Shown: positions 6,443 through 23,733 of the stretch, one piece after another
How positions within the stretch are numbered: the stretch's first letter is position 1
How the letters are laid out: each line of letters opens with the position of its first letter
IMG/VR virus record: IMGVR_UViG_3300023184_000495
Coordinates: 1-24,623 of that record
Source of the DNA: a virus
Reading direction: 5' to 3' (one strand)
Length of the DNA stretch: 24,623 nucleotides
Notes under the pieces: generated by a model
Told to the model about the DNA's origin: nothing
The model's database searches: none
What the model saw: only the letters and a program-made list of their open reading frames with translations
Translations under genes and position numbers: made by a program

Positions 6443-6751
6443 TTAAAGTGTTTTTGCAGCGGGATTAGCACCTGTAGTGGCTGGTTTTTTTGTCGCTGAT
6501 TCTTTGGCGGCAGCGGTTACTGCCATGGCTGTTTTGTCTCTGAGTATTGCATCTTGTGTTTTTTTTATTTTTGGGTTTTTGGCTAATCTAGATAATACTT
6601 CTGTTCCAAGTTGATTTGGATTCAAATTTTTGCCTTCAGTTTCTGCATCGATCATTGCTTTTTTTATTTCTCCGCTAAGTTCTGCATCTGCAGCGCCTAC
6701 GATATCAACTTCTTTTAATTCGAGCCATTCTTTAAAACTTAAATTTTTCAT
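6443..6751 (-). CDS. Ala/Lys-rich protein with capsid-targeting-like N terminus
   Basis: The chosen start is ATG 6751, preceded by AGGAACACAATT; the frame extends eight codons farther without a better site. The 102-residue product starts MKNLSFKEWLELKEVD, one of the clearest copies of the amphipathic N-terminal pattern seen on several genes here. The rest is Ala, Lys and Thr rich with no catalytic motif, ending in a flexible-looking tail (ATKKPATTGANPAAK). T4 internal head proteins have a comparable make-up: a short N-terminal targeting peptide followed by a small basic or Ala-rich body. A packaged internal virion protein is the favoured but unproven reading. Its stop directly abuts the convergent HNH gene. 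Confidence 0.65.
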   Translation of the reverse strand: MKNLSFKEWLELKEVDIVGAADAELSGEIKKAMIDAETEGKNLNPNQLGTEVLSRLAKNPKIKKTQDAILRDKTAMAVTAAAKESATKKPATTGANPAAKTL

Positions 6752-6781
6752 AATTGTGTTCCTGATATAATACATATATAT
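6752..6781. promoter_or_regulatory. Short divergent A+T-rich spacer with ATATATAT element
   Basis: Thirty bases separate the divergent starts at 6751 (minus) and 6782 (plus). They contain the minus-gene ribosome site (AGGAAC on the minus strand) and GATATAATACATATATAT, which ends at the GTG of the plus gene. The ACATATATATGT block is palindromic. GATATAAT could be a -10 box for a plus transcript with a leader of only a few bases. Support is positional only. Confidence 0.35.
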
Positions 6782-6955
6782 GTGAAAACATTTGAAGAAT
6801 TTTTAATTGAAAAACATTTATATGGAATTAACAGCAGAGGCGGGTTAAGTCCGGGCAAATTATTTGTAAAAAGCAACAGGGTCAATATGAAACCTTCTAT
6901 AGTTAGACCATTTTTATTTCACAAGAAAAGACAAAAATCTCAAGTAATAAGTTAA
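6782..6955 (+). CDS. Very small protein with capsid-targeting-like N terminus
   Basis: A 57-residue frame with GTG start. The product begins (M)KTFEEFLIEKHLYG, the closest match in the window to the T4 capsid-targeting peptide MKTYQEFIAE. The remainder is basic (INSRGGLSPGKLFVKS... PFLFHKKRQKSQ) with no enzyme motif. Start choice rests on the N-terminal similarity and on the GTG following the A+T-rich box; there is no Shine-Dalgarno sequence. It is short but stop-free, fits the spacing between neighbours and has codon use like them. It could be a tiny packaged protein or the remnant of a larger one. Confidence 0.6.
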   Translation: MKTFEEFLIEKHLYGINSRGGLSPGKLFVKSNRVNMKPSIVRPFLFHKKRQKSQVIS

Positions 6956-8256: not shown

Positions 8257-8312
8257 ATGTGATTTGGTTATTATGTAATATAGGTTTTCATATAAGTTCT
8301 AGGGGTTCTACT

Positions 8313-10388
8313 ATGATTGAATTCGAAAATATTTTTCAAGACTATGACCGTTCAAATTACAAGTCTCTTAATTCTGAAATGAGTTTTGCAGATTACTTGG
8401 CTGCTTGTTACGAGAAGCCAAAATTGATAAGAAATTCTTGGCAGATGATATACGATATGATCACCGAAAAAGGATCTTCGTCTATTGAAGAATATAGGAA
8501 GACATATACTCATTATAATTTTTTTGATGATCAAGAAATTCCAATTATTGGTTTAGCACCTTCTAAAGACGCTTTGGTTAAATTTATAAAAGGTGCTGCT
8601 GGTGGTTACGGCACAGAAAAAAGAATTCTTCTTCTTCACGGGCCAGTAGGCAGTTCAAAGTCTACAATTTGCCGTTTGATCAAAAGGGGAATGGAAAAAT
8701 TTTCAAGAACTGATTCTGGTGCTTGGTATTCATTTAAATGGGTCGATTTGCCTGTTGGTGCTGATGGCATTTATACAAGCAAGGAAGATGAAAGTCCTAT
8801 GCACGAGCAACCACTTAAGTTGTTGCCATTAGAGATTCGAAATAAGGTTGTAGCGGAACTTAATTCCATTCACAAAGAAAAAACTCCAGAAGACAAACAA
8901 TCAGAAATTTACAAACTTAAATGCGAAGGGGATTTAAACCCTCGTTGTAAATTTTTCATGAATAAACTTCTTAAGATGTACGATGGTGATCTTAAAAAAG
9001 TTTTAGAGAAGCACATTGTTGTAATTAGAAAAGTTTACGATGAATCAAATCGTTGCGGGATTGCAACATTTCAACCTAAAGATGAAAAGAACCAAGATTC
9101 AACTGAACTTACTGGCGACATTAATTTTAGCAAAATTAGTACTTTTGGCTCCGATTCAGATCCAAGATGTTTTAATTTTGACGGAGAATTTTGTATTGGA
9201 AATAGGGGATTGATAGAATTTATCGAAGCACTTAAATTAGAACAAGCGTTTCTTTACGACCTTCTTGGTGCCTCACAAGAACAAAGTATTAAACCAAAGA
9301 AATTCAGTCAAGTCAGTATCGATGAAGCGATTGTGGCACATACAAACAATCCAGAATACGAGAAGCTCAAGAGTAATCCTTATATGGAAGCTCTTAGAGA
9401 TCGTACTGTTAAAATAGATGTGCCATATACATTGAAGTGGTCGGAAGAAGTGAAGATTCTTGAGAAGGATTATTCTAGAGACAGACTGAACCAACATATT
9501 GCTCCACATACATTAGAAGTCGCAGCATTGTGGGCGATCCTTACAAGATTGCACGATGATAAAGATGGTAAATTAAGTTTAGTAGAAAAAGCAGAATTGT
9601 ATGATGGAAAATTACTTTCGGGATGGACCGAAGATGGGGTTAAAGAATTAAAAGACAAATATCCAGAAGAAGGCATGTCTGGTGGCGTTAGCGTGAGATA
9701 TGTGCAAGATAAAATCAGTAATTGTTTGGCTAACAATCATGAATATGTAAATATGTTTATGGTGCTTAATGAGCTTAAAGAAGGATTGACTAATTCGTCT
9801 TTGTTTACCAACAAAGAACAGGTCGGAAGGTATATGACATGCATCGACCTTGTTGTAAAGAAACTAACTGAAATCCTTAAGAATGAAGTACAAAGAGCTT
9901 TGGTCGGAGATGAAGACGCAATTATTAGACTTTGTACAAATTACATCGATAATGTAATGGCTTATATTAATAAGTCTAAAATGAAAGATCCAATTACTGG
10001 ACAAGATCGTAAGCCAGACGAAAGATTGATGCGTTCAATTGAAGAGAAGATTAGTATTCCAGAACAAGGTAGTGATGATTTTAGAAGGCAGATCGCTGCT
10101 TTTATAGGAAGTCTGGCCAACGATGGTAAGAAATTTAAATATGATTCTAATCCGCAATTGAAGAAAGCCCTTGAAGCAAAACTTTTCGAAGATGTAAAAG
10201 ATACAATTAAATTGTCAACTTTAAATGTATCCGGAACCAATGTGGTAGATAAAACTAGTCAAGAAAAAATCGATGCCATTAAAACTAGATTGATTAAAAG
10301 TTATGGCTACAACGAGAGAAGTGCTACTGATGTTCTTGACTTCGTAGGTTCTATATTTGCTAGAGGCGAATTGGCAGATGAAGATTAA
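8313..10388 (+). CDS. prkA: PrkA/YeaG family AAA+ serine kinase-like protein
   Basis: The chosen start is ATG 8313, with AGGGG upstream; the frame is open 18 codons farther but that part looks non-coding. The 691-residue product is somewhat longer than bacterial PrkA/YeaG (about 640). It has the family N-terminal segment (MSFADYLAACYEKPKLIRNSWQ in pieces about 23-44) and a Walker A loop GPVGSSKST (110-118), the PrkA-type variant with Ser in place of Gly. The C-terminal third, with GQDRKPDERLMRSIEEKI, fits the PrkA C-terminal domain. PrkA homologues are described as serine protein kinases and, more recently, as AAA+ proteins linked to stress and stationary phase. It heads a prkA-yeaH-spoVR cluster with 30-nt and 9-nt gaps, matching the bacterial association. 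Confidence 0.93.
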   Translation: MIEFENIFQDYDRSNYKSLNSEMSFADYLAACYEKPKLIRNSWQMIYDMITEKGSSSIEEYRKTYTHYNFFDDQEIPIIGLAPSKDALVKFIKGAAGGYGTEKRILLLHGPVGSSKSTICRLIKRGMEKFSRTDSGAWYSFKWVDLPVGADGIYTSKEDESPMHEQPLKLLPLEIRNKVVAELNSIHKEKTPEDKQSEIYKLKCEGDLNPRCKFFMNKLLKMYDGDLKKVLEKHIVVIRKVYDESNRCGIATFQPKDEKNQDSTELTGDINFSKISTFGSDSDPRCFNFDGEFCIGNRGLIEFIEALKLEQAFLYDLLGASQEQSIKPKKFSQVSIDEAIVAHTNNPEYEKLKSNPYMEALRDRTVKIDVPYTLKWSEEVKILEKDYSRDRLNQHIAPHTLEVAALWAILTRLHDDKDGKLSLVEKAELYDGKLLSGWTEDGVKELKDKYPEEGMSGGVSVRYVQDKISNCLANNHEYVNMFMVLNELKEGLTNSSLFTNKEQVGRYMTCIDLVVKKLTEILKNEVQRALVGDEDAIIRLCTNYIDNVMAYINKSKMKDPITGQDRKPDERLMRSIEEKISIPEQGSDDFRRQIAAFIGSLANDGKKFKYDSNPQLKKALEAKLFEDVKDTIKLSTLNVSGTNVVDKTSQEKIDAIKTRLIKSYGYNERSATDVLDFVGSIFARGELADED

Positions 10389-10418
10389 AAAACTTTAGAT
10401 TAAGAAAGTAGGTGCCAC

Positions 10419-11627
10419 TTGCCTAGAAGAATAGAAGAAGATCACGCTCAGTTTAGAAACATTGTTTCTGGAAGAATTAGAAAAGCTCTGAAGAAGTTCA
10501 TCAAGAGCGGTAAGATATTTCGCAATCGAGGAAAAAAAGGCAAGATAGCCATTTCTATTCCAAAGATTGATATTCCGCATATTGTTCATGGTGAATCCGA
10601 TGAAGGTGCTGGAAGAGGCCAAGGACAAGATGGAGATGTGATTGGCAAGGACAACAATAAAGGCCAAGGTAATCAGGCTGGACAGGATGAGGCCGAAGGT
10701 CAGATGATAAATCTTGATCTTGAACAGGTCTTGAGGTTCATGCAGGATGAATTAGAACTTCCAAATCTTAAGAGAAAAACCAACGAAACATTTGAAGAAG
10801 TTATTATAAAATATAATAACATTTCTTTGATGGGGCCAGAATCGCTTAGGCATAATCGTAGGACATTTCTAGAAGCACTTAAGAGACAGTCGATAGATGG
10901 AACTATAAATGATTTATATGAAGTTCCCGGCTGTGAAATGCCGATGAAGTTAATCAAACCAATTCCAAAAGATAAAAGATACAGACAATACAAGGAAATA
11001 AAAATTCCTTCAAGTAATGCGTTGATTATTTACGCAAGAGATGGCTCTGGTTCCATGGATGCCTATAAATGCGATATAGTCAGTGATATGGCGTGGTGGA
11101 TCGATGTTTGGATTAAAAGGTTTTATGATCGTGTTGATCGATTGTTTGTCTGGCATGATAGCGTAGCACAAGAAGTCGATGAGGATAAGTTTTACAAATA
11201 TCGTTTTGGTGGCGGAACTACTTGTTCTTCTGCTTTGAAGTTTATATCGAAACAATTCGAAAACAGATATCCGCCTGAAAAATGGAATATATATGTTTTT
11301 TACTTTACTGATGGCGAAAATTGGGGCGATGACAATAAGGTTTTTATTCAAACTTTAAAAGATGAATTTGGACCAGATAAGGTTAATTTATTTGGTGTCA
11401 CTCAAATTCTTTCTTATACATATGAAAATTCAGTTAAACAAATGGTCGATAACGCTTTAAGTGAAAATGTTTTAAGTAGAGACAATGTCATTACCACAAG
11501 CATAAGTGGAGATGAAGGAGAAGGTAAGAATTTTTATAGTTCTGAAATTAGCGAACAACGAAGAAACGAACAAATTTTAGAAGCAATTAAAACTTTAATG
11601 GGCAATAAGAAAACATTAATATTTTAA
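10419..11627 (+). CDS. yeaH: YeaH/YhbH family (DUF444) vWA-domain protein
   Basis: This 402-residue protein starts at TTG 10419, five bases after AGGTG; no closer ATG fits. The N terminus (RRIEEDHAQFRNIVSGRIRK in pieces) and the Gly/Gln/Asp-rich linker at about 60-95 are typical of YeaH/YhbH. The C-terminal half is a von Willebrand A-like domain with a metal-binding DxSxS motif (D208-G-S-G-S212) and a later FTDGENWGDD (about 297-306). Bacterial YeaH is about 430 residues and is partnered with the PrkA kinase YeaG. Its place between prkA and spoVR, close on both sides, supports the same partnership here. The biochemical role of the family is not settled. Confidence 0.93.
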   Translation: MPRRIEEDHAQFRNIVSGRIRKALKKFIKSGKIFRNRGKKGKIAISIPKIDIPHIVHGESDEGAGRGQGQDGDVIGKDNNKGQGNQAGQDEAEGQMINLDLEQVLRFMQDELELPNLKRKTNETFEEVIIKYNNISLMGPESLRHNRRTFLEALKRQSIDGTINDLYEVPGCEMPMKLIKPIPKDKRYRQYKEIKIPSSNALIIYARDGSGSMDAYKCDIVSDMAWWIDVWIKRFYDRVDRLFVWHDSVAQEVDEDKFYKYRFGGGTTCSSALKFISKQFENRYPPEKWNIYVFYFTDGENWGDDNKVFIQTLKDEFGPDKVNLFGVTQILSYTYENSVKQMVDNALSENVLSRDNVITTSISGDEGEGKNFYSSEISEQRRNEQILEAIKTLMGNKKTLIF

Positions 11628-11636
11628 AGGATAAAA

Positions 11637-13253
11637 ATGCAAAATAAGTTTTTTTATGGCGCACCAGTTCTTTTGAGTAACAACACTGTTCCGGGCGTTC
11701 AACTTTCTGCTGAATTAAAAAAATATGTTCCGATGATTTTAAAGTCATGTCAAGATTGGGGTTTGGATTTTTATCCAACCATAGTTCAAATGTTGACATA
11801 CGATGAGATATCAGAAATAGCAGCTTATAGCGGATTTCCAGTTAGATTTCCTCACTGGTCTTTTGGTATGGAATACGAAGAACTTCAGCGAGGATACGAA
11901 TTCGGGGCGCATCGCATATATGAAATGGTAATTAATTCAAAACCATGTGTTATTTATTGTCTTAATAGCAATACACTTGGAGATAATTTAACTGTTGTAG
12001 CTCATGCGACTGGTCATAATGATTTTTTCAAAAATAACATTCACTTTTCCGCTACTAATACTGATATGTTGAATATCATGGCGAATCATGGAAGTAGAAT
12101 TAGAAAGTATATGAGCAGATGGGGCAATGAAAAAGTTACTACCTTTATAGATCATGTGATGAGAATAGAGACGCTTGTAGATGGAGCAAATGCGTGGAAT
12201 CAAAAAGTAATAAAAGATAAAAACTTTAAAGATAAAAGAAAATATAGAAATCCTAAAAGATTGCATGTAGAAAACGAAAGATTATACATGGATTCTTTTA
12301 TAAACACTAAAGAATTTAAGGAAAAAGAAAACTCTAAAATAAATAAAAAATATACAGCAGAAGAATTAGATATTTTTATAAAACCAACAAGAGATATTTT
12401 TGGATTCTTAAAAGAGAACGCCCCTTTAAAGCCTTGGCAACAAGATATAATGTCTATGTTATACGAAGAGGCTTTATATTTCTTCCCTCAAAGACACACC
12501 AAGGTAATGAATGAAGGCTTTGCTTCTACGGTAGATCATGTGATCATGGCAGAACAAGGGAATATTGGCTTGGGGCAAGAATCACATGATGCTGGTATAT
12601 TTGATTATGCTGTTCACAAAATGGGCGTTCTTGGCGGTAAGTATAGCACGAATCCTTATAAACTTGGCTATAATTTATTTGCCGATATTCGTGAGAGATA
12701 CGACAAAGGAAGGTTCGGCACTGAATGGGAACAATGCACGGACATGCACAAAAGAGAAAACTGGAATACAAATACAAATTTAGGCAAAGAAAAGATTTTT
12801 GAAGTAAGAAAACATTATGACGATTTTACATTTTTAAATGAATTCTTTACTGAGGATTTTTGTAGAAAACAAGAATATTTTGAATGGAAAAAACAACCTA
12901 ACGGAGAATTCGTAATCGCATCAAGAGATTACGAAAAAATTAAAAAGAATTTACTTCGAAAATATGTCAATGGCGGTCTGCCAGACATAAGGTTGGAAGA
13001 AAATAATTTTAGAGGAAAAGGTTATTTGTTTTTACAGCATCATTCCACAGGACAAAGGATTTACGATCCTTATGTTCGTGATGTGTTGACATCAATTAGA
13101 GCCATATGGGGTAACGATGTGTATTTTGCAACTAAATCTCCAGATGGAACTGAGCATGTCTATGATTGTCATGGACCTGACTCGACAAAAGATGTTTCGG
13201 TTAAAACTAAACAAGGATTCATAGGAGCAGACAGAAATGACAGAAACGAATGA
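11637..13253 (+). CDS. spoVR: SpoVR/YcgB family protein
   Basis: A 538-residue protein of the SpoVR family, slightly longer than E. coli YcgB (about 510). Diagnostic segments are YPTIVQMLTYDEISEIAAY (about 41-59), FPHWSFGMEYEEL (about 72-84), AHATGHNDFFKNN (about 122-134) and NEGFASTVDHVIMAEQGN (about 289-306, where the bacterial family has EGWA). The C-terminal TGQRIYDPYVRDVLTSI is also family-like. SpoVR is needed for spore cortex formation in Bacillus; in other bacteria it co-occurs with PrkA and YeaH in stress operons, and its reaction is unknown. AAAGGATAAAA precedes the ATG, 9 nt after yeaH. Its last 17 nt overlap the glycosyltransferase-like gene, so the cluster may extend into that gene. 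Confidence 0.94.
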   Translation: MQNKFFYGAPVLLSNNTVPGVQLSAELKKYVPMILKSCQDWGLDFYPTIVQMLTYDEISEIAAYSGFPVRFPHWSFGMEYEELQRGYEFGAHRIYEMVINSKPCVIYCLNSNTLGDNLTVVAHATGHNDFFKNNIHFSATNTDMLNIMANHGSRIRKYMSRWGNEKVTTFIDHVMRIETLVDGANAWNQKVIKDKNFKDKRKYRNPKRLHVENERLYMDSFINTKEFKEKENSKINKKYTAEELDIFIKPTRDIFGFLKENAPLKPWQQDIMSMLYEEALYFFPQRHTKVMNEGFASTVDHVIMAEQGNIGLGQESHDAGIFDYAVHKMGVLGGKYSTNPYKLGYNLFADIRERYDKGRFGTEWEQCTDMHKRENWNTNTNLGKEKIFEVRKHYDDFTFLNEFFTEDFCRKQEYFEWKKQPNGEFVIASRDYEKIKKNLLRKYVNGGLPDIRLEENNFRGKGYLFLQHHSTGQRIYDPYVRDVLTSIRAIWGNDVYFATKSPDGTEHVYDCHGPDSTKDVSVKTKQGFIGADRNDRNE

Positions 13254-14762: not shown

Positions 14763-16064
14763 TTGGACGGATTCGGAACCGTTGAAGAATATTCCGCTAG
14801 AGCCATTCAAATAAATCAAAACTTTTTGACTGTAAGCGATCATGGAATGTTGGGTGCAGTTCCAAGGCAAATAAAGGCTTGCGAAATAATTTGTGACAAA
14901 TACGGAAAAGACAAATTGTCTCCTATATTTGCCGCAGAGCTTTATATGAATCCTTTGCAGCCAGATTCAAAGAATTCAGAAGAACTATCCAAATATACAT
15001 CAGAATTATCTCCTGATGAAATGAATATATTTAAAGCAAGTCCGCATTTACTTGCCATTGCTTATAATGAGACAGGATATAAAAATCTTGTAAATTTAAC
15101 CTCTTGGGGATTTACAAGAGGTTTTTATCGTAAGCCAAGAGTTAATTACGAACAATTATTGCTTCACAAAGAAGGACTGTATTTCACTTCGTGTTGTTAC
15201 AACAGTGAAATAGGCAGGGCATTTGATGCTGGTGGCGAAGAATCAGCATTTCAAATGATTGAAAAATATATTTCTATGTTTGGTAAAGATAATTATTATC
15301 TTGAAATAATGTTGTTAGATTTCAAGAAGCAAAAGCCATACAATCAATTTATCGTTAAAGCAAAAGAAAAATATAATTTAAAAATTATATTGAGTCAGGA
15401 TTGCCATTATTGTTTGCAAGAAGATAGCCACTATCAAAGATTAATGTTGATGGTACAGACGAATAGAACAATTCAAGAAATTCAAAACGCACTCAAAGAA
15501 GATGCCATGAGAGACTTCTTTGAGTTGCAAGATGCCAATTTATGGATGAAGTCCGAGGAAGAACTAAATGATAAATGGTTAAGTGATTATAGCGATGTTG
15601 TTCCTTATGAAATATTTTGTGAAGCAAAAAGTACTACTGTTGAAATATGCAGAAAAGCAAAAGGCGTGAAACTTGATAGAAGTTTAAAATTACCAAGTTT
15701 TCCTGATTGTGATGAAAAATTAAAAGAATTAGTCGTATATGGTTATCGCAAGAAAAAACTACCAGATACAAATGAATATAAAAGCAGAATCAAAGAAGAA
15801 CTTGGTTTGATAACAAGAAAAGGATTTAGCACATATTTTCTTATTCAGAAGATGATGACTGATGAAGCTAGAAAGTGGTGTAAAGAATTTTTAGGCGGAG
15901 ATGGGTCGCAAGCAGTTGGTCCGGGTAGGGGTTCTTGTTGTGGCTCATTGATTTGTTATTGTTTGGGCATTACAGATGTTGATCCAATAAAAGAAGATCT
16001 GCTTTTTTCTAGATTCATGAGTGAAGCTAGAGGTGGCAGATCTATAAAATTAGAAATGGAATGA
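14763..16064 (+). CDS. dnaE: DNA polymerase III alpha, N-terminal fragment (PHP plus start of palm)
   Basis: This frame of 433 codons from TTG 14763 continues the PHP domain: LDGFGTVEEYSARA, LTVSDHGML, PIFAAELYMN and ILSQDCHYC are the successive PHP motifs. It then enters the polymerase palm: RIKEELGLITRKGFSTYFLI and the nucleotide-binding GPGRGSCCGSLICYCLGITDVDP near the end. It stops after LLFSRFMSEARGG plus eight extra residues, just before the PDIDVDY catalytic motif, which is on the next fragment. The coding frame is open upstream to GGC 14745. Landing of bypassing ribosomes at TTA 14760, or initiation at TTG with GGAG upstream, are both possible. The protein must pair with the second fragment to make an active site. 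Confidence 0.9.
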   Translation: MDGFGTVEEYSARAIQINQNFLTVSDHGMLGAVPRQIKACEIICDKYGKDKLSPIFAAELYMNPLQPDSKNSEELSKYTSELSPDEMNIFKASPHLLAIAYNETGYKNLVNLTSWGFTRGFYRKPRVNYEQLLLHKEGLYFTSCCYNSEIGRAFDAGGEESAFQMIEKYISMFGKDNYYLEIMLLDFKKQKPYNQFIVKAKEKYNLKIILSQDCHYCLQEDSHYQRLMLMVQTNRTIQEIQNALKEDAMRDFFELQDANLWMKSEEELNDKWLSDYSDVVPYEIFCEAKSTTVEICRKAKGVKLDRSLKLPSFPDCDEKLKELVVYGYRKKKLPDTNEYKSRIKEELGLITRKGFSTYFLIQKMMTDEARKWCKEFLGGDGSQAVGPGRGSCCGSLICYCLGITDVDPIKEDLLFSRFMSEARGGRSIKLEME

Positions 16065-16067
16065 AAA

Positions 16068-16565
16068 TTAAATTATATTTTTATTTTTCAATTCGATAAC
16101 CAAGCTGCTTGCGAAAGTTGTATTTTTACAAAATTCTACAGTTTCTTTAATTGTTTTGTGCATATTTGCTGGAACAATAGAACCTTCGTTTTTTATCTTT
16201 TTAGCTAATTGTGAAACTTTCATATTTCTAGTTTCTTTAGCCCATTCAGATACCGAGCTTACTTTTGGTTCGTAAATAAGTTTCTTATCGCCTTCGTGTC
16301 CAAGTCCTTCTGAATCATCTTTACATTTTGAAGATTTCATTTCCTTGCCTTCATCGCCAAGACCATCTTCTGGTTCTGCAATAAATTTAGATTTTTTGGT
16401 TGGATTTGAATATGGGGATGGTTTTTCTTTTTGTCCATCGTATTTTTCTGGGGAATTTGGAGGTTCATCGTCAAATGTAGCAATGAGTTTTACATCTGGA
16501 TCTTCTTGCATTTTGCCCTTGGAATTCAAATATTCATGAAAGGAAATAAATTCGGTTTTGTTCAT
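16068..16565 (-). CDS. Unknown protein with capsid-targeting-like N terminus, inserted between dnaE fragments
   Basis: A 165-residue minus-strand protein, ATG 16565 preceded by AAGGTG. It starts MNKTEFISFHEYLNSKGKM, matching the short amphipathic N-terminal pattern of other small genes here. A low-complexity middle has an imperfect repeat (DGLGDEGKEM and EGLGHEGDKK) and many Pro, Ser, Lys and Glu. The C-terminal part is more regular (SVSEWAKETRNMKVSQLAKK, then MHKTIKETVEFCKNTTFASS). No enzyme motif is seen. It is convergent with the N-terminal dnaE fragment, only 3 nt apart, and divergent from the tmRNA. It is probably a virion-internal protein unrelated to the polymerase. Confidence 0.65.
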   Translation of the reverse strand: MNKTEFISFHEYLNSKGKMQEDPDVKLIATFDDEPPNSPEKYDGQKEKPSPYSNPTKKSKFIAEPEDGLGDEGKEMKSSKCKDDSEGLGHEGDKKLIYEPKVSSVSEWAKETRNMKVSQLAKKIKNEGSIVPANMHKTIKETVEFCKNTTFASSLVIELKNKNII

Positions 16566-16639: not shown

Positions 16640-16980
16640 GGGGGCGAGATAGTTTCGATTGTTGTGGAATTTCAATTGTTGCATGTAGTGGTTGATCGAA
16701 AGGCCACTTAAAACTTCGATCACAATATAGGTGCAGAACCTGTTTTTTCTATGGCTGCTTAATTAAGCTACCTCAAATTTAGAAGATTTTGACTATTCTA
16801 AATTTGCATTAGTCAAATAGTTTTGGTGTATGTTGTGGACATCAAGGCAAAATTCAACAAATCGTTTGCGAAAATTTTTGGTTGTTATAAATTCGTAAAT
16901 TAAACTTTAATAATAACACAAACATGTAGACGCACTTGAGATGAGATAGCAAGACACCGGGGCGGTTCCGGTCGCCTCCA
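16640..16980 (+). ncRNA. ssrA: Transfer-messenger RNA (tmRNA)
   Basis: A complete one-piece tmRNA of 341 nt. GGGGGCG (16640-16646) pairs fully with CGCCTCC (16973-16979), and a G3-U70 wobble marks it for alanyl-tRNA synthetase; the discriminator is A16980 and CCA is not encoded. The 5' side continues AGATAGTTTCGATTG, like the tmRNA D-loop region. Pseudoknot 1 is formed by AGTGG/CCACT (16687-16691 with 16704-16708) and GATCGAA/TTCGATC (16694-16700 with 16715-16721). Eleven nt later comes the resume codon GCA, with UAG at -5 to -3 as in E. coli. The 3' end has the 17-nt T arm with stem ACCGG/CCGGT, but the 7-nt loop is GGCGGTT instead of TTCRANN. T-rich sequence follows and may end transcription. 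tmRNA rescues stalled ribosomes. Confidence 0.95.
16733..16762 (+). other. tmRNA tag reading frame (AEPVFSMAA-stop)
   Basis: From resume codon GCA 16733 the frame reads A-E-P-V-F-S-M-A-A and stops at TAA 16760-16762. The final Ala-Ala is the usual protease-recognition end; Met replaces the common Leu or Val before it. The region after the stop (TTAAGCTACC) fits helix 5 of tmRNA. With the alanine carried by the tmRNA itself, the added tag would be ten residues. Confidence 0.9.
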
Positions 16981-17034
16981 CTTTTTTCATTTTTTAGACT
17001 TCCACAAAAAGTTAATTTTTATTATTGTTTAAAC

Positions 17035-18705
17035 ATGGCTATAAACAGAGAAAGCATTGTATCTTATTTAAAAAATAAGATTGAAGACGAAAGCATCCTT
17101 TATCAAAAAAGGTTGAATTGGGAGATTGCGGAAATAGACGCAAAAGAAAAATGGGATTATTTTATAAATCTTTATTTGTACAAAAAGAAATTCGATACAA
17201 ATAAAAACAATTTATTGGTTCCATATCTTTTAGGGATAGTTATTGATTTTGATATCAACAAGAATCCAGAATGTTACTTTGGTGAGTTTCCAGATATCGA
17301 TGTCGATTACATTGGTACGGTTAGAGATTATTTGAAAAACGAATGGGCAAAAAAACAGTTTGGTGAAAATTATGTTTGTAGTATTGGGAACTATACAACA
17401 TTTGGAATCAAGTCTGCACTTATCGATATGGCTAGGGTTCACGGTATACCAAGAGAAGACATTCTTGTTTTAACAAAAGATCTTGATGCAAAAGACGAAG
17501 AAGGTAAAGCCTTGACATGGGAAGCTGCCATGAGGCTGTATCCTGCGTTGAAGAAATTTTGCGATGAACATCCAGATGTCGCCAAAGCATCTCAAAAACT
17601 AATCAATCGCAATAGAGGAATGGGTGTACATGCTGGTGGCTTAATTATAAGTTCCATTCCGTTGACCGATTTGGTTCCTTTGGTTAAAAGAAAGGAAAGT
17701 CCACAAGCATCTGCTTGGGTGGAAGGTTTACATGGTCAAGACTTACAGCCAGTAGGATTAGTTAAATTCGATCTATTAGTTGTATCGAATCTATCGCAGA
17801 TAGCTCAATGTTGTGAATTGGTCAAGCATAGGCATGGTTTAACTTCCATATGTGCTTTGGAATCTCAGCCAGACTGGACAGATGTAGATAAATGGAGAAA
17901 TGACGAGAAATCATTGGCTATGGCTAATGATGGAGATTTAAAGTGTGTATTTCAATTTGATAGCGAAGGAATTAGAAAGTTAGCAAAAGATGGAGGGGTG
18001 ACATCCTTTGATGATATGGTTGCTTATTCTTCTATTTATAGGCCCGGTCCTTTGAACATGAAAATGCACGAGAGATATATTGAAAGGAAAAGAGGCAGAG
18101 AACAATATAGCTTGCACCCAATTTTAGATTCCATATTAGGCAAAACATATGGAGTTATGATTTACCAAGAACAAGTTATGCAAATTTTGAATAAAGTAGG
18201 TGGGATTCCATTAAAAGATTGTGAGGCCGTAAGAAAGGCTATTTCTAAGAAAAAAGTAGAGGCATTTTTAAAATATAAAGAAATGTTTGTTAAGAACGGA
18301 CAAGTAAGTTTAAATTGTTCAGAAAAAGAAATAAACAGCTTGTTTGATCAAATAATTTCCTTTTCAGAATATGGCTTTAACAGATGTGTAACGAAGGACA
18401 ACCTTGTTTACGATCATGTTCGTAAAAGTTATGTGACGATTGGTGAGTTATTTGAGGAGTTTCAGTCCGAAGGTGGCACACAAGTTATCCTTGATTCTTT
18501 TGTAGACAACAAGATAATTAAGGATAATCTAGTTGATGTGTTTGAGACAGGAGAAAAAGAAGTTTATGAAATCGAATTGGATAATGGAATTACTTTGCGT
18601 ACAACGCTAGATCATAAATTTATGTGTTCTAATGGTTTGTATCATACTATTCAAGAAATTTTTGATAATGATTTAGAAATATTATCGGATTCATACTCTA
18701 TGTAA
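17035..18705 (+). CDS. dnaE: DNA polymerase III alpha, middle fragment with N-terminal half of a split intein
   Basis: The 556-residue product carries the catalytic core of DnaE. PDIDVDY (86-92) supplies the first two active-site Asp, and VKFDLL (243-248, D246) supplies the third. The GVHAGG block (197-202), VFQFDSEG, YRPGPL and YGVMIYQEQVMQI are also present. Residues 1-85 resemble a degenerate second copy of the palm segment at the end of the N-terminal fragment (YQKRLNWEIAEID, DYFINL, LLVPYLLGI), but without GPGRGS. The polymerase part ends at FSEYGFNR (ending at base 18384); from C451 to the end it is an N-intein. ATG 17035 has no clear ribosome site and lies 54 nt after the tmRNA. Its product must be trans-spliced to the fragment starting at 19842. 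Confidence 0.93.
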   Translation: MAINRESIVSYLKNKIEDESILYQKRLNWEIAEIDAKEKWDYFINLYLYKKKFDTNKNNLLVPYLLGIVIDFDINKNPECYFGEFPDIDVDYIGTVRDYLKNEWAKKQFGENYVCSIGNYTTFGIKSALIDMARVHGIPREDILVLTKDLDAKDEEGKALTWEAAMRLYPALKKFCDEHPDVAKASQKLINRNRGMGVHAGGLIISSIPLTDLVPLVKRKESPQASAWVEGLHGQDLQPVGLVKFDLLVVSNLSQIAQCCELVKHRHGLTSICALESQPDWTDVDKWRNDEKSLAMANDGDLKCVFQFDSEGIRKLAKDGGVTSFDDMVAYSSIYRPGPLNMKMHERYIERKRGREQYSLHPILDSILGKTYGVMIYQEQVMQILNKVGGIPLKDCEAVRKAISKKKVEAFLKYKEMFVKNGQVSLNCSEKEINSLFDQIISFSEYGFNRCVTKDNLVYDHVRKSYVTIGELFEEFQSEGGTQVILDSFVDNKIIKDNLVDVFETGEKEVYEIELDNGITLRTTLDHKFMCSNGLYHTIQEIFDNDLEILSDSYSM

Positions 18706-18712
18706 GAGTATG
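18692..18712 (+). promoter_or_regulatory. Stop-start hairpin between N-intein and endonuclease gene
   Basis: CATACTC (18692-18698) and GAGTATG (18706-18712) form a perfect 7-bp stem with loop TATGTAA. The loop holds the stop codon of the N-intein frame (TAA 18703-18705) and the 3' arm holds the ATG of the endonuclease (18710). A ribosome terminating on the first gene would open it, so endonuclease translation may depend on upstream translation. Confidence 0.5.
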
Positions 18713-19810
18713 AAACATCATGAATACTTGCAATACAAACATTTAAGGAAACTTTATTTTAAAGGAAAATATTATAAAGAAATTTCTGTAGAATTAAAGA
18801 CTACCGTTGACTATATTAGCCAGAAAGTCAAAGAACATAATCTCAATGATAAGCGAGAGCGTTGGTACGAGTATTTAGTGACACATGCATATGGAACGGA
18901 AAAACAATTGTGTGAAGTTGCCACTTTGGTTGGAATCAGTGTTTCTATTTTGAATAGAGTCAAGCGTAAGCTGGGAATTAAAACTAAGCGATTTACTATC
19001 CACAACAAGAGGATAACCAGCGATATTAAAGATCAAATGGTTGATTTTTATAAATCTGGAATGACTGGCACAGAAGTCGCCAAAAAATTTGGCTACAAAA
19101 CATCTAAGACAGTCGAAGATGTATTAAAAGAAAAAAATGTAGAAGCAAGAGAGGCGTGTTTTCGTCGCAAATATGACTACGATTTTTTTAAATTAGTTAA
19201 TTCTCATGACAAAGCGTACATTCTTGGTTTACTCTATACAGATGGTTATATTTATAAAGACTACGCTGGTTTTGCGATTCAGTTAACTGAGGGTGATCGA
19301 TATTTGCTCGAAAGGATTGCTGCTAAAATCGGTCTTGGTGCTTCAGTAATTCACATCAACTGTGATGGCAAGAGAAAAAAAATGCCTAATGCTAAGGACA
19401 TGGCAAGGCTTGGCGTTTATTCCAAAGTATTGGCCAAACAAGTAAAAAAACTTGGTGTCGTAAAAAGAAAAACTTATCATCTATCTGTTTCGTCTAATCT
19501 TATACCAAAGAAGTATCGTTACAGTTTACTTCGTGGAATAATAGATGGTGATGGATCTGTTGGTGTAGACAAAAGAGGTGTTATTTGGCTGAAAGTGTGC
19601 ATGAAGTCTGAGCAATTTGCAAAAGATATTTGTAGTTTGTTTCCTGATGACTTTTCGTTTAATAAATTTCAGAATAATTATGGTGACATGTATTACATTT
19701 CTATCCTTGGTGGTCGAAGCAACACTATTCGAATGTTGCGAAAAATATACAAGCATAAAGGCGATCTTTACTTACAGCGAAAATATGATAAAATTTATTC
19801 TTATCTATAA
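18710..19810 (+). CDS. LAGLIDADG homing endonuclease within split intein
   Basis: A 366-residue protein with three helix-turn-helix-like segments in its N-terminal half (about 14-42, 65-88 and 106-141, for example MTGTEVAKKFGYKTSKTVEDVL) and a two-motif LAGLIDADG domain: YILGLLYTDGYI (about 170-181) and LLRGIIDGDGSV (about 273-284). The acidic residues of each motif (Asp in YTDGY and in DGDGS) are present, so it is probably active. Such enzymes cut an intein-less allele and spread the element by recombination. The start is ATG 18710, four bases after the N-intein stop. It is a free-standing protein, not fused to the intein, which sets this element apart from most inteins. The HTH part likely binds the target or its own promoter. 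Confidence 0.9.
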   Translation: MKHHEYLQYKHLRKLYFKGKYYKEISVELKTTVDYISQKVKEHNLNDKRERWYEYLVTHAYGTEKQLCEVATLVGISVSILNRVKRKLGIKTKRFTIHNKRITSDIKDQMVDFYKSGMTGTEVAKKFGYKTSKTVEDVLKEKNVEAREACFRRKYDYDFFKLVNSHDKAYILGLLYTDGYIYKDYAGFAIQLTEGDRYLLERIAAKIGLGASVIHINCDGKRKKMPNAKDMARLGVYSKVLAKQVKKLGVVKRKTYHLSVSSNLIPKKYRYSLLRGIIDGDGSVGVDKRGVIWLKVCMKSEQFAKDICSLFPDDFSFNKFQNNYGDMYYISILGGRSNTIRMLRKIYKHKGDLYLQRKYDKIYSYL

Positions 19811-19841
19811 ATAAATTTATATTTCTTAGAAGGCGATAACG

Positions 19842-21275
19842 ATGAAGATATGCAAGATTAAATCGATAAAACATTTGGGAATGCAAAAAACTTACAATTT
19901 GACGATGGCATCTGAACAGCACAATTATGCAATTTGTGGAACTACTCCAAGCAAATTTGTCATCAGTCGTAATTCCCATGCCGTTGCGTACATGTACATA
20001 AGTGCTAGGCTTCTTTATTTGAAATCTCATTATCCATTGGAGTTTTACGCTTCTATTTTGAAATGCGAAAATGTATCTGATAAGATTAAGGACTATAAGA
20101 TAGAGGCAAAAAATCACAACATTGAAATAAGAACTTTGGATTTAAACAATTCTAAAGAAGGCTTTGGTTTGGTTGACGATAATTTGTATTTTGGATTTTC
20201 TAATGTAAAGGGCATAGGCACAGAGCCAGCGAAAAGGATAGTTGAGGGTCAGCCATACTCTGGATTTGAAGATTTTTTAAAGAGATTTGGCACAGACGCT
20301 TCGGTTCTTAAGTGTCTTATTGGTTTGCGTTGTTTCAAGGAAGCTGATCCTGTAGTTCTTTGGAAGTACCTTGAGTTTTTCAAAGAATATAAAAAGAAAA
20401 TTGTCGATAAAGAAAATAGATTTAAAAACAATTTTGATAAATCCGAAGAACTATATGGTTTTTTTACATCTAATTCTGAAACAATTAAATTTTCCGATTT
20501 AACTGGTGACGATCCTTTTTCTGATGTTTATTGGCAACAATATGATACCGAAATCGAGATCGAAATAGAAAAAGAAACAGAATGCGATGCTGATGAAGGA
20601 GAATATTCAAAAATCGTTATAAAAAATATAAAAGTAGATGAGTCTGGTTTGATTATAGAAGAAGAAAGATTGAAATATTTTAAAAAAATAAAAGTAAAGA
20701 AAAAACTTAATCGTCTTAACGAACTAAAGAAACTATGGTCTAAAAGACAACAGAATCTTGAAAAATATAAAAGTGTTTTTAATATTCCTAGTTTTGAATC
20801 TTTTAATCCCGAAAAACAAACAATCGATAAAAACATACAAAGTGAGCTTGAAGATTTATTTGGATGTGAGAAAAAGTATTATGGATTTTCTTGGACAAGT
20901 AAATTGTCTAATAGTTCTATGAGTAAAACATTTTCTTTAAGAAAAGAAAATAAAATTGGCAATGGATATGTGGAATTTGAAATTGTAGATGTTAAAAAAT
21001 ATAAAACTAAAGCTGGTGCTGATTATTTGCAAATAAAAGGTCAAGACTTCGATGGTATAGAAGAAAGAATAAATGTTTGGTCGGAAGATGTGGAGAGATG
21101 GCATCAAGAATTGAAAAAAGGTAACTTAATTAGAATGAAAGTAACTCCGCCATCTAAAGGGTTTAATACTTTCAGCATAGAATCCAACAGATCGAAAAAT
21201 TATGTTAAAAAGAACATGATTTGGACTTCGAAAGAAGAAGACCCTAGAGTTATAATTTTGAAAGGAATAGACTAA
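19842..21275 (+). CDS. dnaE: DNA polymerase III alpha, C-terminal fragment preceded by C-intein
   Basis: The 477-residue product starts with the 44-residue C-intein (to N44) and continues S45-HAVAYMYISARLLYLKSHYPLEFYASIL, the DnaE block after GFN(K/R). Next come LYFGFSNVKGIG (helix-hairpin-helix region, about 107-118) and FEDFLKRFG. A long charged segment (about 190-300, Lys/Glu-rich) has no bacterial counterpart that I recognise. At the end is an OB-fold-like domain (VEFEIVDVKKYKTKAGADYLQIKG, then NLIRMKVTPP). The usual C-terminal clamp-binding and tau-binding regions are not apparent, so clamp contact may differ. AGAAGG lies upstream of ATG 19842. After trans-splicing this completes the polymerase. 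The stop overlaps the next ATG (TAATG). Confidence 0.92.
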   Translation: MKICKIKSIKHLGMQKTYNLTMASEQHNYAICGTTPSKFVISRNSHAVAYMYISARLLYLKSHYPLEFYASILKCENVSDKIKDYKIEAKNHNIEIRTLDLNNSKEGFGLVDDNLYFGFSNVKGIGTEPAKRIVEGQPYSGFEDFLKRFGTDASVLKCLIGLRCFKEADPVVLWKYLEFFKEYKKKIVDKENRFKNNFDKSEELYGFFTSNSETIKFSDLTGDDPFSDVYWQQYDTEIEIEIEKETECDADEGEYSKIVIKNIKVDESGLIIEEERLKYFKKIKVKKKLNRLNELKKLWSKRQQNLEKYKSVFNIPSFESFNPEKQTIDKNIQSELEDLFGCEKKYYGFSWTSKLSNSSMSKTFSLRKENKIGNGYVEFEIVDVKKYKTKAGADYLQIKGQDFDGIEERINVWSEDVERWHQELKKGNLIRMKVTPPSKGFNTFSIESNRSKNYVKKNMIWTSKEEDPRVIILKGID

Positions 21276-22468: not shown

Positions 22469-23052
22469 TGGACGATAATAATTCGATTAATAGTTTCAAA
22501 AATGATATTGATAAATATTCGGCTATTTGGGAAAAAGCATTGAAAGACGGAATTTTCGATTCTGCTGAAGTCAACACTAATAAAAACGATGGCAATCCAG
22601 TCGATGAACCAAATGATTTTTTTGGTTTGCATTGCGATGTTGTTGATATTCCTTTGAATGAATCTGAAGGTAGAAATTGGAATGCTATTTATCGTGCTTC
22701 TGTAAATGAAGTTGTAAATGAAGAAAAATCTTCGGTAAAAAAAAAATTAGGTAATGTAACCAAATCTGTAGCTAATGCTTTTAATCCAGTACAAGCACAA
22801 ACTGTCGGAAAAGATGCAACAAGTGATGTCGATGATAATTTCGGTATCGTTGGAGATGATTTGCAAAAATTATCTGATATGAAGAAGAAATTACACGATT
22901 TGAAATCAAAAATTAATTCCGAAGAAGCAAGAGCCGATAAAAGATTTCCAGCTATGGAAAAAAAATTGGCAGATATGGAAAAAGAAATAGACGCTTTAAG
23001 TGACTCTTTGTATGGAAACAGAACCGTAGAAAAGAAAAGAAAAATTAAATAA
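22468..23052 (+). CDS. Probable structural or scaffold-like coiled-coil protein
   Basis: A 194-residue, highly charged protein. The N terminus (MDDNNSINSFKNDIDKYSAIWEKALKDG) is followed by a polar middle. The C-terminal 65 residues (LQKLSDMKKKLHDLKSKIN in pieces, then FPAMEKKLADMEKEIDALSDSLYG) have heptad-like repeats and probably form a coiled coil. No enzymatic motif is seen. It is coupled to the small membrane protein by TAATG. Composition and the coiled coil would suit a scaffold, tail or virion-assembly protein; this is inference. Its last 8 nt overlap the convergent HindIII-like gene. Confidence 0.6.
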   Translation: MDDNNSINSFKNDIDKYSAIWEKALKDGIFDSAEVNTNKNDGNPVDEPNDFFGLHCDVVDIPLNESEGRNWNAIYRASVNEVVNEEKSSVKKKLGNVTKSVANAFNPVQAQTVGKDATSDVDDNFGIVGDDLQKLSDMKKKLHDLKSKINSEEARADKRFPAMEKKLADMEKEIDALSDSLYGNRTVEKKRKIK

Positions 23053-23733
23053 GTTCTTTTTTGGCTCTTAATAAATTTCTTTTAATCCTTCCCAATGCAT
23101 TAATGTCATTATCAATAATTTTTATTGCTAAATTACTTTGTTCGATAAAGTAATTTATTTCTTCGTTTTTATATTTTTTAAGAGTTTCTTTTGATTTTCC
23201 GTAGACATCACAAATTGATTTGTCTAATTCATCCCAATAAAAATTATTACATTTTCTAATCTTTAAATAATTGTTTATTTCCCATATGTGCTTCAAATCT
23301 TCTTGACCAGTATATTCATTAACTAAAAAACAAAATCTTCCGTATGTCAAAAGCGTTACATTGCATTCTTTTGCATGATTATAAATTTGACTGTTTTTAG
23401 AACTTGAAAATGTATGCCATGGAGCAATTATAATTGCATGCTTATGTTCCATTCTCCATTTATCAACAGAATAAATTTTAAAATCTTTTGGATTATAAGG
23501 GTTTCTTCTGCATCGTGATGCCTTGCTATCAATTACCGCTGAATGATCGTTGTTCCAAATTTTTGCGTCTGCACTGTTTGACCTTGTTGTGAATATCTCT
23601 TTTTCGTAGCCTAAAACTTCAAATCCATTAGATATTCAATGTCACACTCTTTTGCAAATTTTTTTTCTTCAGAAGAAGATACTCTGATTTTTTCTGGAAT
23701 AATGCTTTTTTCAATTATTTGTTTTTTAAGCAT
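23045..23733 (-). pseudogene. HindIII-like restriction endonuclease with a frameshift
   Basis: On the minus strand, ATG 23733 opens 40 codons (MLKKQIIEKSIIPEKIRVSS, then EEKKFAKECDIEYL) ending at TAG 23611. The reading continues in another frame from about 23630 as NGFEVLGYEKEIF, SNSADAKIW, AVIDSKASRCRR, NPKDFKIYSVDKWR, then from Met 23452 to the stop at 23045. The joined protein resembles HindIII as I recall it: the spacing from FxK-x2-DI to RxNxxD has the same length, and catalytic D, D and K appear as SAD and IDSK. One base is missing near CTAATGG. The 135-residue frame from 23452 alone lacks the active site. Either an assembly error, a true inactivation or a programmed frameshift explains it. 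No methyltransferase gene is in the window. Confidence 0.65.

Follow-up and report, generated by a model that had tools for sequence, protein, structure and literature searches.

Phage-encoded tmRNAs have been published before (PMC4131195, PMC9004378), and tmRNA was found in 402 of 18,146 phage genomes, about 2% (PMC9004378). Huge phages with both tmRNA and SmpB are known (Al-Shayeb et al. 2020, PMC7162821). In phage DS6A the tmRNA consists of the tRNA-like domain only (TLD-only), and a molecule like it acts as a tmRNA inhibitor, perhaps through titration of SmpB (PMC4131195). Contact between the D-loop and the T-loop was reported as required for SmpB binding, and the T-loop of tmRNA normally carries m5U and pseudouridine (PMC3968760). 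GG in the T-loop was noted for the tmRNA of the Reclinomonas americana mitochondrion, and one G for that of Caulobacter (PMC1168896). Introns in the tmRNA T-loop have been amply described (883 sequences, four sites; PMC11915505).

The window analysed here comprises the full 24,623-base IMG/VR record IMGVR_UViG_3300023184_000495. It was assigned to a virus genome by this record, by a phage DNA polymerase (phrog_405) and a head closure protein (phrog_218), and by synteny in relatives. A covariance-model search of the record with Rfam RF00023 returned one match, at 16640-16983 on the plus strand, which covered the whole model (positions 1-374) and scored 100.4 bits (gathering score 47; E 1.8e-38). 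A first-pass annotation, made from the letters alone, had proposed a complete tmRNA here and named the covariance-model search as a check; the proposal was borne out. Its reading of the acceptor stem with G3-U70 (7 of 7 pairs), of pseudoknot 1, and of a GCA resume codon followed by the tag AEPVFSMAA and a TAA stop was likewise confirmed. Positions of all features are collected in Table 1.

Table 1. Positions of the features discussed, in window coordinates unless another record is named.
Feature	Position	Strand	Evidence
One-piece tmRNA gene (ssrA)	16640-16980	+	G1 to discriminator A73; RF00023, covariation in relatives
Acceptor stem, 5' strand GGGGGCG	16640-16646	+	7/7 pairs; G3 pairs with U70
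D-loop dinucleotide AG in G18G19 place	16651-16652	+	Alignment with relatives; co-occurrence with odd T-loops
Helix 2, inner 5' strand GCATG	16681-16685	+	Pairs with 16923-16927; complementarity and covariation
Pseudoknot 1	16687-16721	+	Stems 16687-16691/16704-16708 and 16694-16700/16715-16721; complementarity and covariation
Tag reading frame	16733-16762	+	GCA GAA CCT GTT TTT TCT ATG GCT GCT TAA
Pseudoknot 2	16774-16817	+	11-bp stem 16774-16784/16796-16806, 8-bp stem 16788-16795/16810-16817; complementarity
Pseudoknot 3	16820-16859	+	Stem 16820-16829/16839-16848 complementary; second stem 16831-16835/16855-16859
Pseudoknot 4	16865-16917	+	Stems 16865-16872/16892-16899 and 16881-16887/16911-16917; complementarity
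T arm, stem ACCGG/CCGGT, loop GGCGGTT at 16961-16967	16956-16972	+	Sequence; family alignment
Acceptor stem, 3' strand CGCCTCC	16973-16979	+	Pairing with 5' strand; family alignment
DnaE-N (PHP domain and first part of polymerase domain), separate gene	14763-16064	+	PF02811, PF07733 positions 3-98, phrog_405
Unknown 165-aa gene adjoining the tmRNA, opposite strand	16068-16565	-	Same neighbour in many relatives
DnaE-C, ends in intein N-terminal part	17035-18705	+	PF07733 positions 100-259, PF17657, weak PF14890
Short tmRNA, L502	1379-1521 (= G021:C1:325378-325520)	-	RF00023 55.2 bits
Short tmRNA, L505	3008-3139	-	RF00023 54.2 bits
Short tmRNA, L506	5040-5166	-	RF00023 44.8 bits, below cut-off 47
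Short tmRNA, L507	666-802	-	RF00023 56.7 bits

The stems of all four pseudoknots are fully complementary in the window sequence. Pseudoknot 1 is supported by covariation, pseudoknots 2 to 4 by complementarity in the window sequence only, and the second stem of pseudoknot 3 was read by eye. The T arm has a 5-bp stem and a 7-nt loop. The gene contains no intron, and its fold energy is 3.05 SD better than that of shuffles (z = -3.05). Since the discriminator A73 is followed by CTT at 16981-16983 (ACTT instead of ACCA), CCA is not encoded and must be added to the tmRNA. Promoter-like matches near the gene were no more frequent than expected by chance. ARAGORN called no tmRNA at 16640-16980 despite the RF00023 match.

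Relatives were collected through DnaE-C in viral contigs, five at first and then 80 by profile, in records no longer than 511 kb. Among named phage records the nearest was LR756511, a 595-kb uncultured phage with a 43% identical DnaE-C. Blastn of the dnaE region and the tmRNA against 50,697 phage records gave no match. Among 50 related viral records searched whole, 28 contained a tmRNA above the Rfam cut-off; the other 22, some of them fragments, showed none, and the tmRNA is thus dispensable in the phage family. The first-pass annotation had called tmRNAs rare in phages, which is true of phages overall but not of this family.

As annotated, the tmRNA gene is phage-encoded and sits between DnaE-N and DnaE-C. 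Synteny was scored in 41 related loci showing both dnaE halves, with DnaE-C at least 43% identical. The halves are separate genes, kilobases apart, in 40 loci and continuous in one (L075). A tmRNA occupies the gap in 22 of the 40 split loci (three on the opposite strand), and no tmRNA match was found in 18; these counts are a manual tally in which near-identical contigs are included. The position of the tmRNA between dnaE-N and dnaE-C is conserved in the phage family. The first-pass annotation had described dnaE as broken and suggested that the insertion that split it either brought the tmRNA or received it later. The break is not fresh, given two separate genes in nearly all loci. Delivery by the splitting insertion is not supported, in view of the 18 split loci with no tmRNA in the gap and of L075, in which a tmRNA lies about 5 kb upstream of the unsplit dnaE. 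The gap may have received the tmRNA later; the order of the two events, arrival of the tmRNA and split of dnaE, does not follow from the data.

Accidental carriage of a host sequence, by imprecise excision of an element integrated in ssrA, was considered at this point. It is true that ssrA is a common integration site and that its fragments occur in prophages (PMC9004378). Such an origin is, however, already contradicted by synteny, as the same place and the same neighbouring genes recur in many divergent phages; moreover, the tmRNA gene is whole and the window proteins scanned included no recognisable integrase. We regard accidental carriage as barely credible.

Several other features of the window were recorded. 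DnaE-C is split again (18390-19842): the N-terminal part of an intein ends the ORF 17035-18705, the C-terminal part seems to start the ORF 19842-21275, and a LAGLIDADG endonuclease gene (18710-19810) lies between the two. This arrangement presumably resembles the published 'fractured genes' with split inteins. Genes for PrkA serine kinase, DUF444 and SpoVR stand in a row at 8259-13253, a bacterial stress cassette on a phage contig. A 135-aa protein at 23045-23452 (minus strand) matches the C-terminal half of the HindIII restriction endonuclease (PF09518, E 2.1e-11). Small proteins at 2326-2781, 6443-6775 (minus strand), 6782-6955 and 16068-16565 (minus strand) share a similar F..F/W-L-E/K start motif (for example MKTFEEFLIEK, MKNLSFKEWLELKE and FISFHEYLNSKGK), which may be reminiscent of the start that targets T4 internal head proteins to the capsid.

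For analysis of constraint, 23 one-piece family tmRNAs were aligned and the acceptor stem, the T stem, inner helix 2 and both stems of pseudoknot 1 were scored. Standard pairs occupied 96.5% of helix cells, compared with 76.3% after shuffling, and two-sided changes were present in 22 of 29 helix pairs; none of 500 shuffles reached any of the pairing measures. Pairing fell to 33-50% when the structures were slid by 1-3 columns. This control is flattering and the two-sided changes are the stronger evidence, because the structure was taken from the window sequence. G3-U70 was kept in 23 of 23 sequences. In the T stem, pairing reached 100% of cells, and each of the five pairs showed two-sided changes. 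The window tmRNA is a real RNA under constraint.

The tag pattern is common to the relatives compared. Sixteen tags, hand-picked as nine-residue and readable without gaps, all were nine residues long, with a resume codon beginning in G and [M/L]AA before the stop, and the third positions of their alanine codons vary freely. Tags elsewhere in the family are in some cases longer or different. Where ARAGORN found the gene (L020, with the tag DETVHALAA, L017 and L028), it independently gave the same tag frame.

The elbow departs from the common form, a point absent from the first-pass annotation, as was the ARAGORN miss. A TTCRANN T-loop is usual in tRNAs and most tmRNAs, and the usual D-loop dinucleotide is GG (G18G19, tRNA numbering). 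This elbow is usual for tmRNA, not defining, and many bacterial tmRNAs do without it. Both elements are absent in the window tmRNA, which has GGCGGTT and AG. Because G occupies positions 54 and 55, neither m5U54 nor pseudouridine 55 is possible in its T-loop. A non-canonical T-loop was found in seven family members including the window (GGCGGTT in the window; GGCGGTA, GGCGGGT, GGCAGGT, GGCAGAA, AGCATAG and one irregular loop, in L104, in the others), and the D-loop of all seven has AG. Family members with normal T-loops have GG.

For tmRNAs outside the family, the scan patterns specified the T arm with its surroundings and left the D-loop dinucleotide free. One-piece tmRNAs among the matches were located by pairing of the acceptor strands. 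Among the matches listed, unique one-piece tmRNAs with an odd T-loop had AG in all 8 viral cases and in 46 of 48 bacterial ones (14 of the 46 with the dinucleotide one base later; TG in the remaining two). Viral one-piece tmRNAs with a normal T-loop had GG in 48 of 48 cases, seven of them shifted by one. These counts come from mutually related sequences and are not independent events, nor are the two T-loop types comparable as frequencies among the matches listed. The T-loop change from TTCRANN to GGCRGNN is joined with a D-loop change from GG to AG. The sequences suggest that the contact G18-U55 is likely replaced by A18-G55, with G19-C56 kept. In a literature search covering a minority of subscription journals, no description was found of the matched D-loop/T-loop change or of a one-piece phage tmRNA with such a change.

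No one-piece 5' end was found for 110 of the 119 viral odd-T-loop matches among those listed; these are probably permuted two-piece tmRNAs. The bacterial odd-T-loop matches listed belong mostly to Candidatus Saccharibacteria, and also to Omnitrophota, Clostridia and others; the odd elbow is therefore a normal feature of some bacterial tmRNAs. The combination of a T-loop of the form [AG]GC[AG][GT]NN with D-loop AG is widespread in the Saccharibacteria tmRNAs (matches listed, L237-L355). As the same T-loop class is common there, the odd T-loop is compatible with function.

The T-loop could also be read as a loss-of-function mutation in a tmRNA that is being lost, as it lacks U54, U55 and A58, is unrecognised by ARAGORN and belongs to a family in which 22 of 50 relatives have no match above the cut-off. 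Yet the gene retains every stem and an unbroken tag frame, four of the six odd-T-loop relatives share the same GGCRGNN type, the matched D-loop change occurs in six of six, and the same pair is normal in many bacteria. A decaying gene is very unlikely; mutational decay was rejected on the ground that D-loop and T-loop changed as a matched pair.

When placed on the DnaE-C tree, which presupposes that there was no recombination, the odd elbow needs five changes, at least three of them forced by well-supported branches. This pattern fits repeated change of the elbow as well as exchange of tmRNA genes between phages, and the tree does not discriminate between the two. T-loop introns need four changes on the same tree. 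A group I intron (RF00028) interrupts the tmRNA T-loop of four relatives (L005, L108, L110 and L111), and in L005 the exons flanking it restore the acceptor stem, the T stem and G3-U70. The exact splice points were left unfixed, since the rules of U at -1 and terminal G conflict with a 7-nt loop in three of the four. A rather doubtful extension would make the T-loop a battleground: group I introns would invade the TTC site, and recoding of the elbow would remove the intron target together with the sites of modifying enzymes while the tmRNA stays active, the window gene being an escaped form.

SmpB was considered as partner of the tmRNA. No smpB was found in the 24.6-kb fragment, an incomplete record, and SmpB is encoded by 3 of 50 relatives. 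One of these three genomes (G021, 436 kb) has a full tmRNA in addition to SmpB. Very short tmRNAs of about 127-143 nt were also observed in viral contigs (Table 1); they have the whole tRNA-like domain and G3-U70, with no room for four pseudoknots. In G021 such a short tmRNA, with a tag-like frame AYNENSAAT*, shares the genome with the full tmRNA and SmpB. The shortened molecules in other viral contigs and the inhibitory molecule similar to that of DS6A (PMC4131195) lend some substance to a decoy or competitor role, in which the phage tmRNA would bind host SmpB, AlaRS and EF-Tu and mainly block or re-tag host trans-translation. All pseudoknots, the resume codon and the conserved tag are nevertheless kept in the window gene and would be superfluous in a pure decoy. 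For the window tmRNA we consider this role unlikely.

We conclude that the window very probably contains a genuine, selectively maintained one-piece phage tmRNA of standard form with a recoded elbow. Judged by its sequence, the RNA most likely functions like other tmRNAs, with SmpB supplied by the host. The gene would be transcribed and the RNA processed, and host alanyl-tRNA synthetase would charge it through G3-U70. Host SmpB, or a phage SmpB encoded outside the fragment, would then guide it, during infection, to ribosomes that have stalled on broken mRNA. Translation would restart at GCA, and AEPVFSMAA would be added to the product for host proteases. In the elbow, the G19-C56 contact would be kept, with A18-G55 in place of G18-U55. 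The gain for the phage may be ribosome turnover independent of the host tmRNA supply. Helping, replacing and competing with the host tmRNA, of which the first-pass annotation had named replacement and competition, are not separable by sequence alone.

The type of gene is known, and the points of interest are the elbow variant and its recurrence in a phage family. The findings add a family of large phages that often carry a tmRNA, and at a fixed location. They indicate that tmRNA can replace its D-loop/T-loop contact by changing both partners together, and provide a natural mutant series for asking which elbow contact is needed by SmpB, by the ribosome and by modifying enzymes. Phage tmRNA surveys based on ARAGORN undercount genes with a recoded elbow. 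The survey of Al-Shayeb et al. (PMC7162821), whose huge phages are likewise large and encode tmRNA and SmpB, used ARAGORN, which misses the recoded-elbow tmRNAs found here. The mycobacteriophage Bxz1 group, Bacillus phage G and OM43 phage Melnitz likewise have a complete phage tmRNA with its own tag (PMC4131195, PMC9004378). The Melnitz tmRNA is two-piece and permuted, whereas that of the window is one-piece, has a recoded elbow and lies in a family-conserved dnaE gap. The short viral tmRNAs resemble the TLD-only tmRNA of DS6A. The introns of the four relatives are like those of described tmRNAs with T-loop group I introns, while the window gene is intronless. The tmRNA of the Reclinomonas americana mitochondrion has lost the UU of the T-loop, as has the window tmRNA (PMC1168896); in the window the loss occurs in a one-piece tmRNA and is accompanied by the matching D-loop change counted here.
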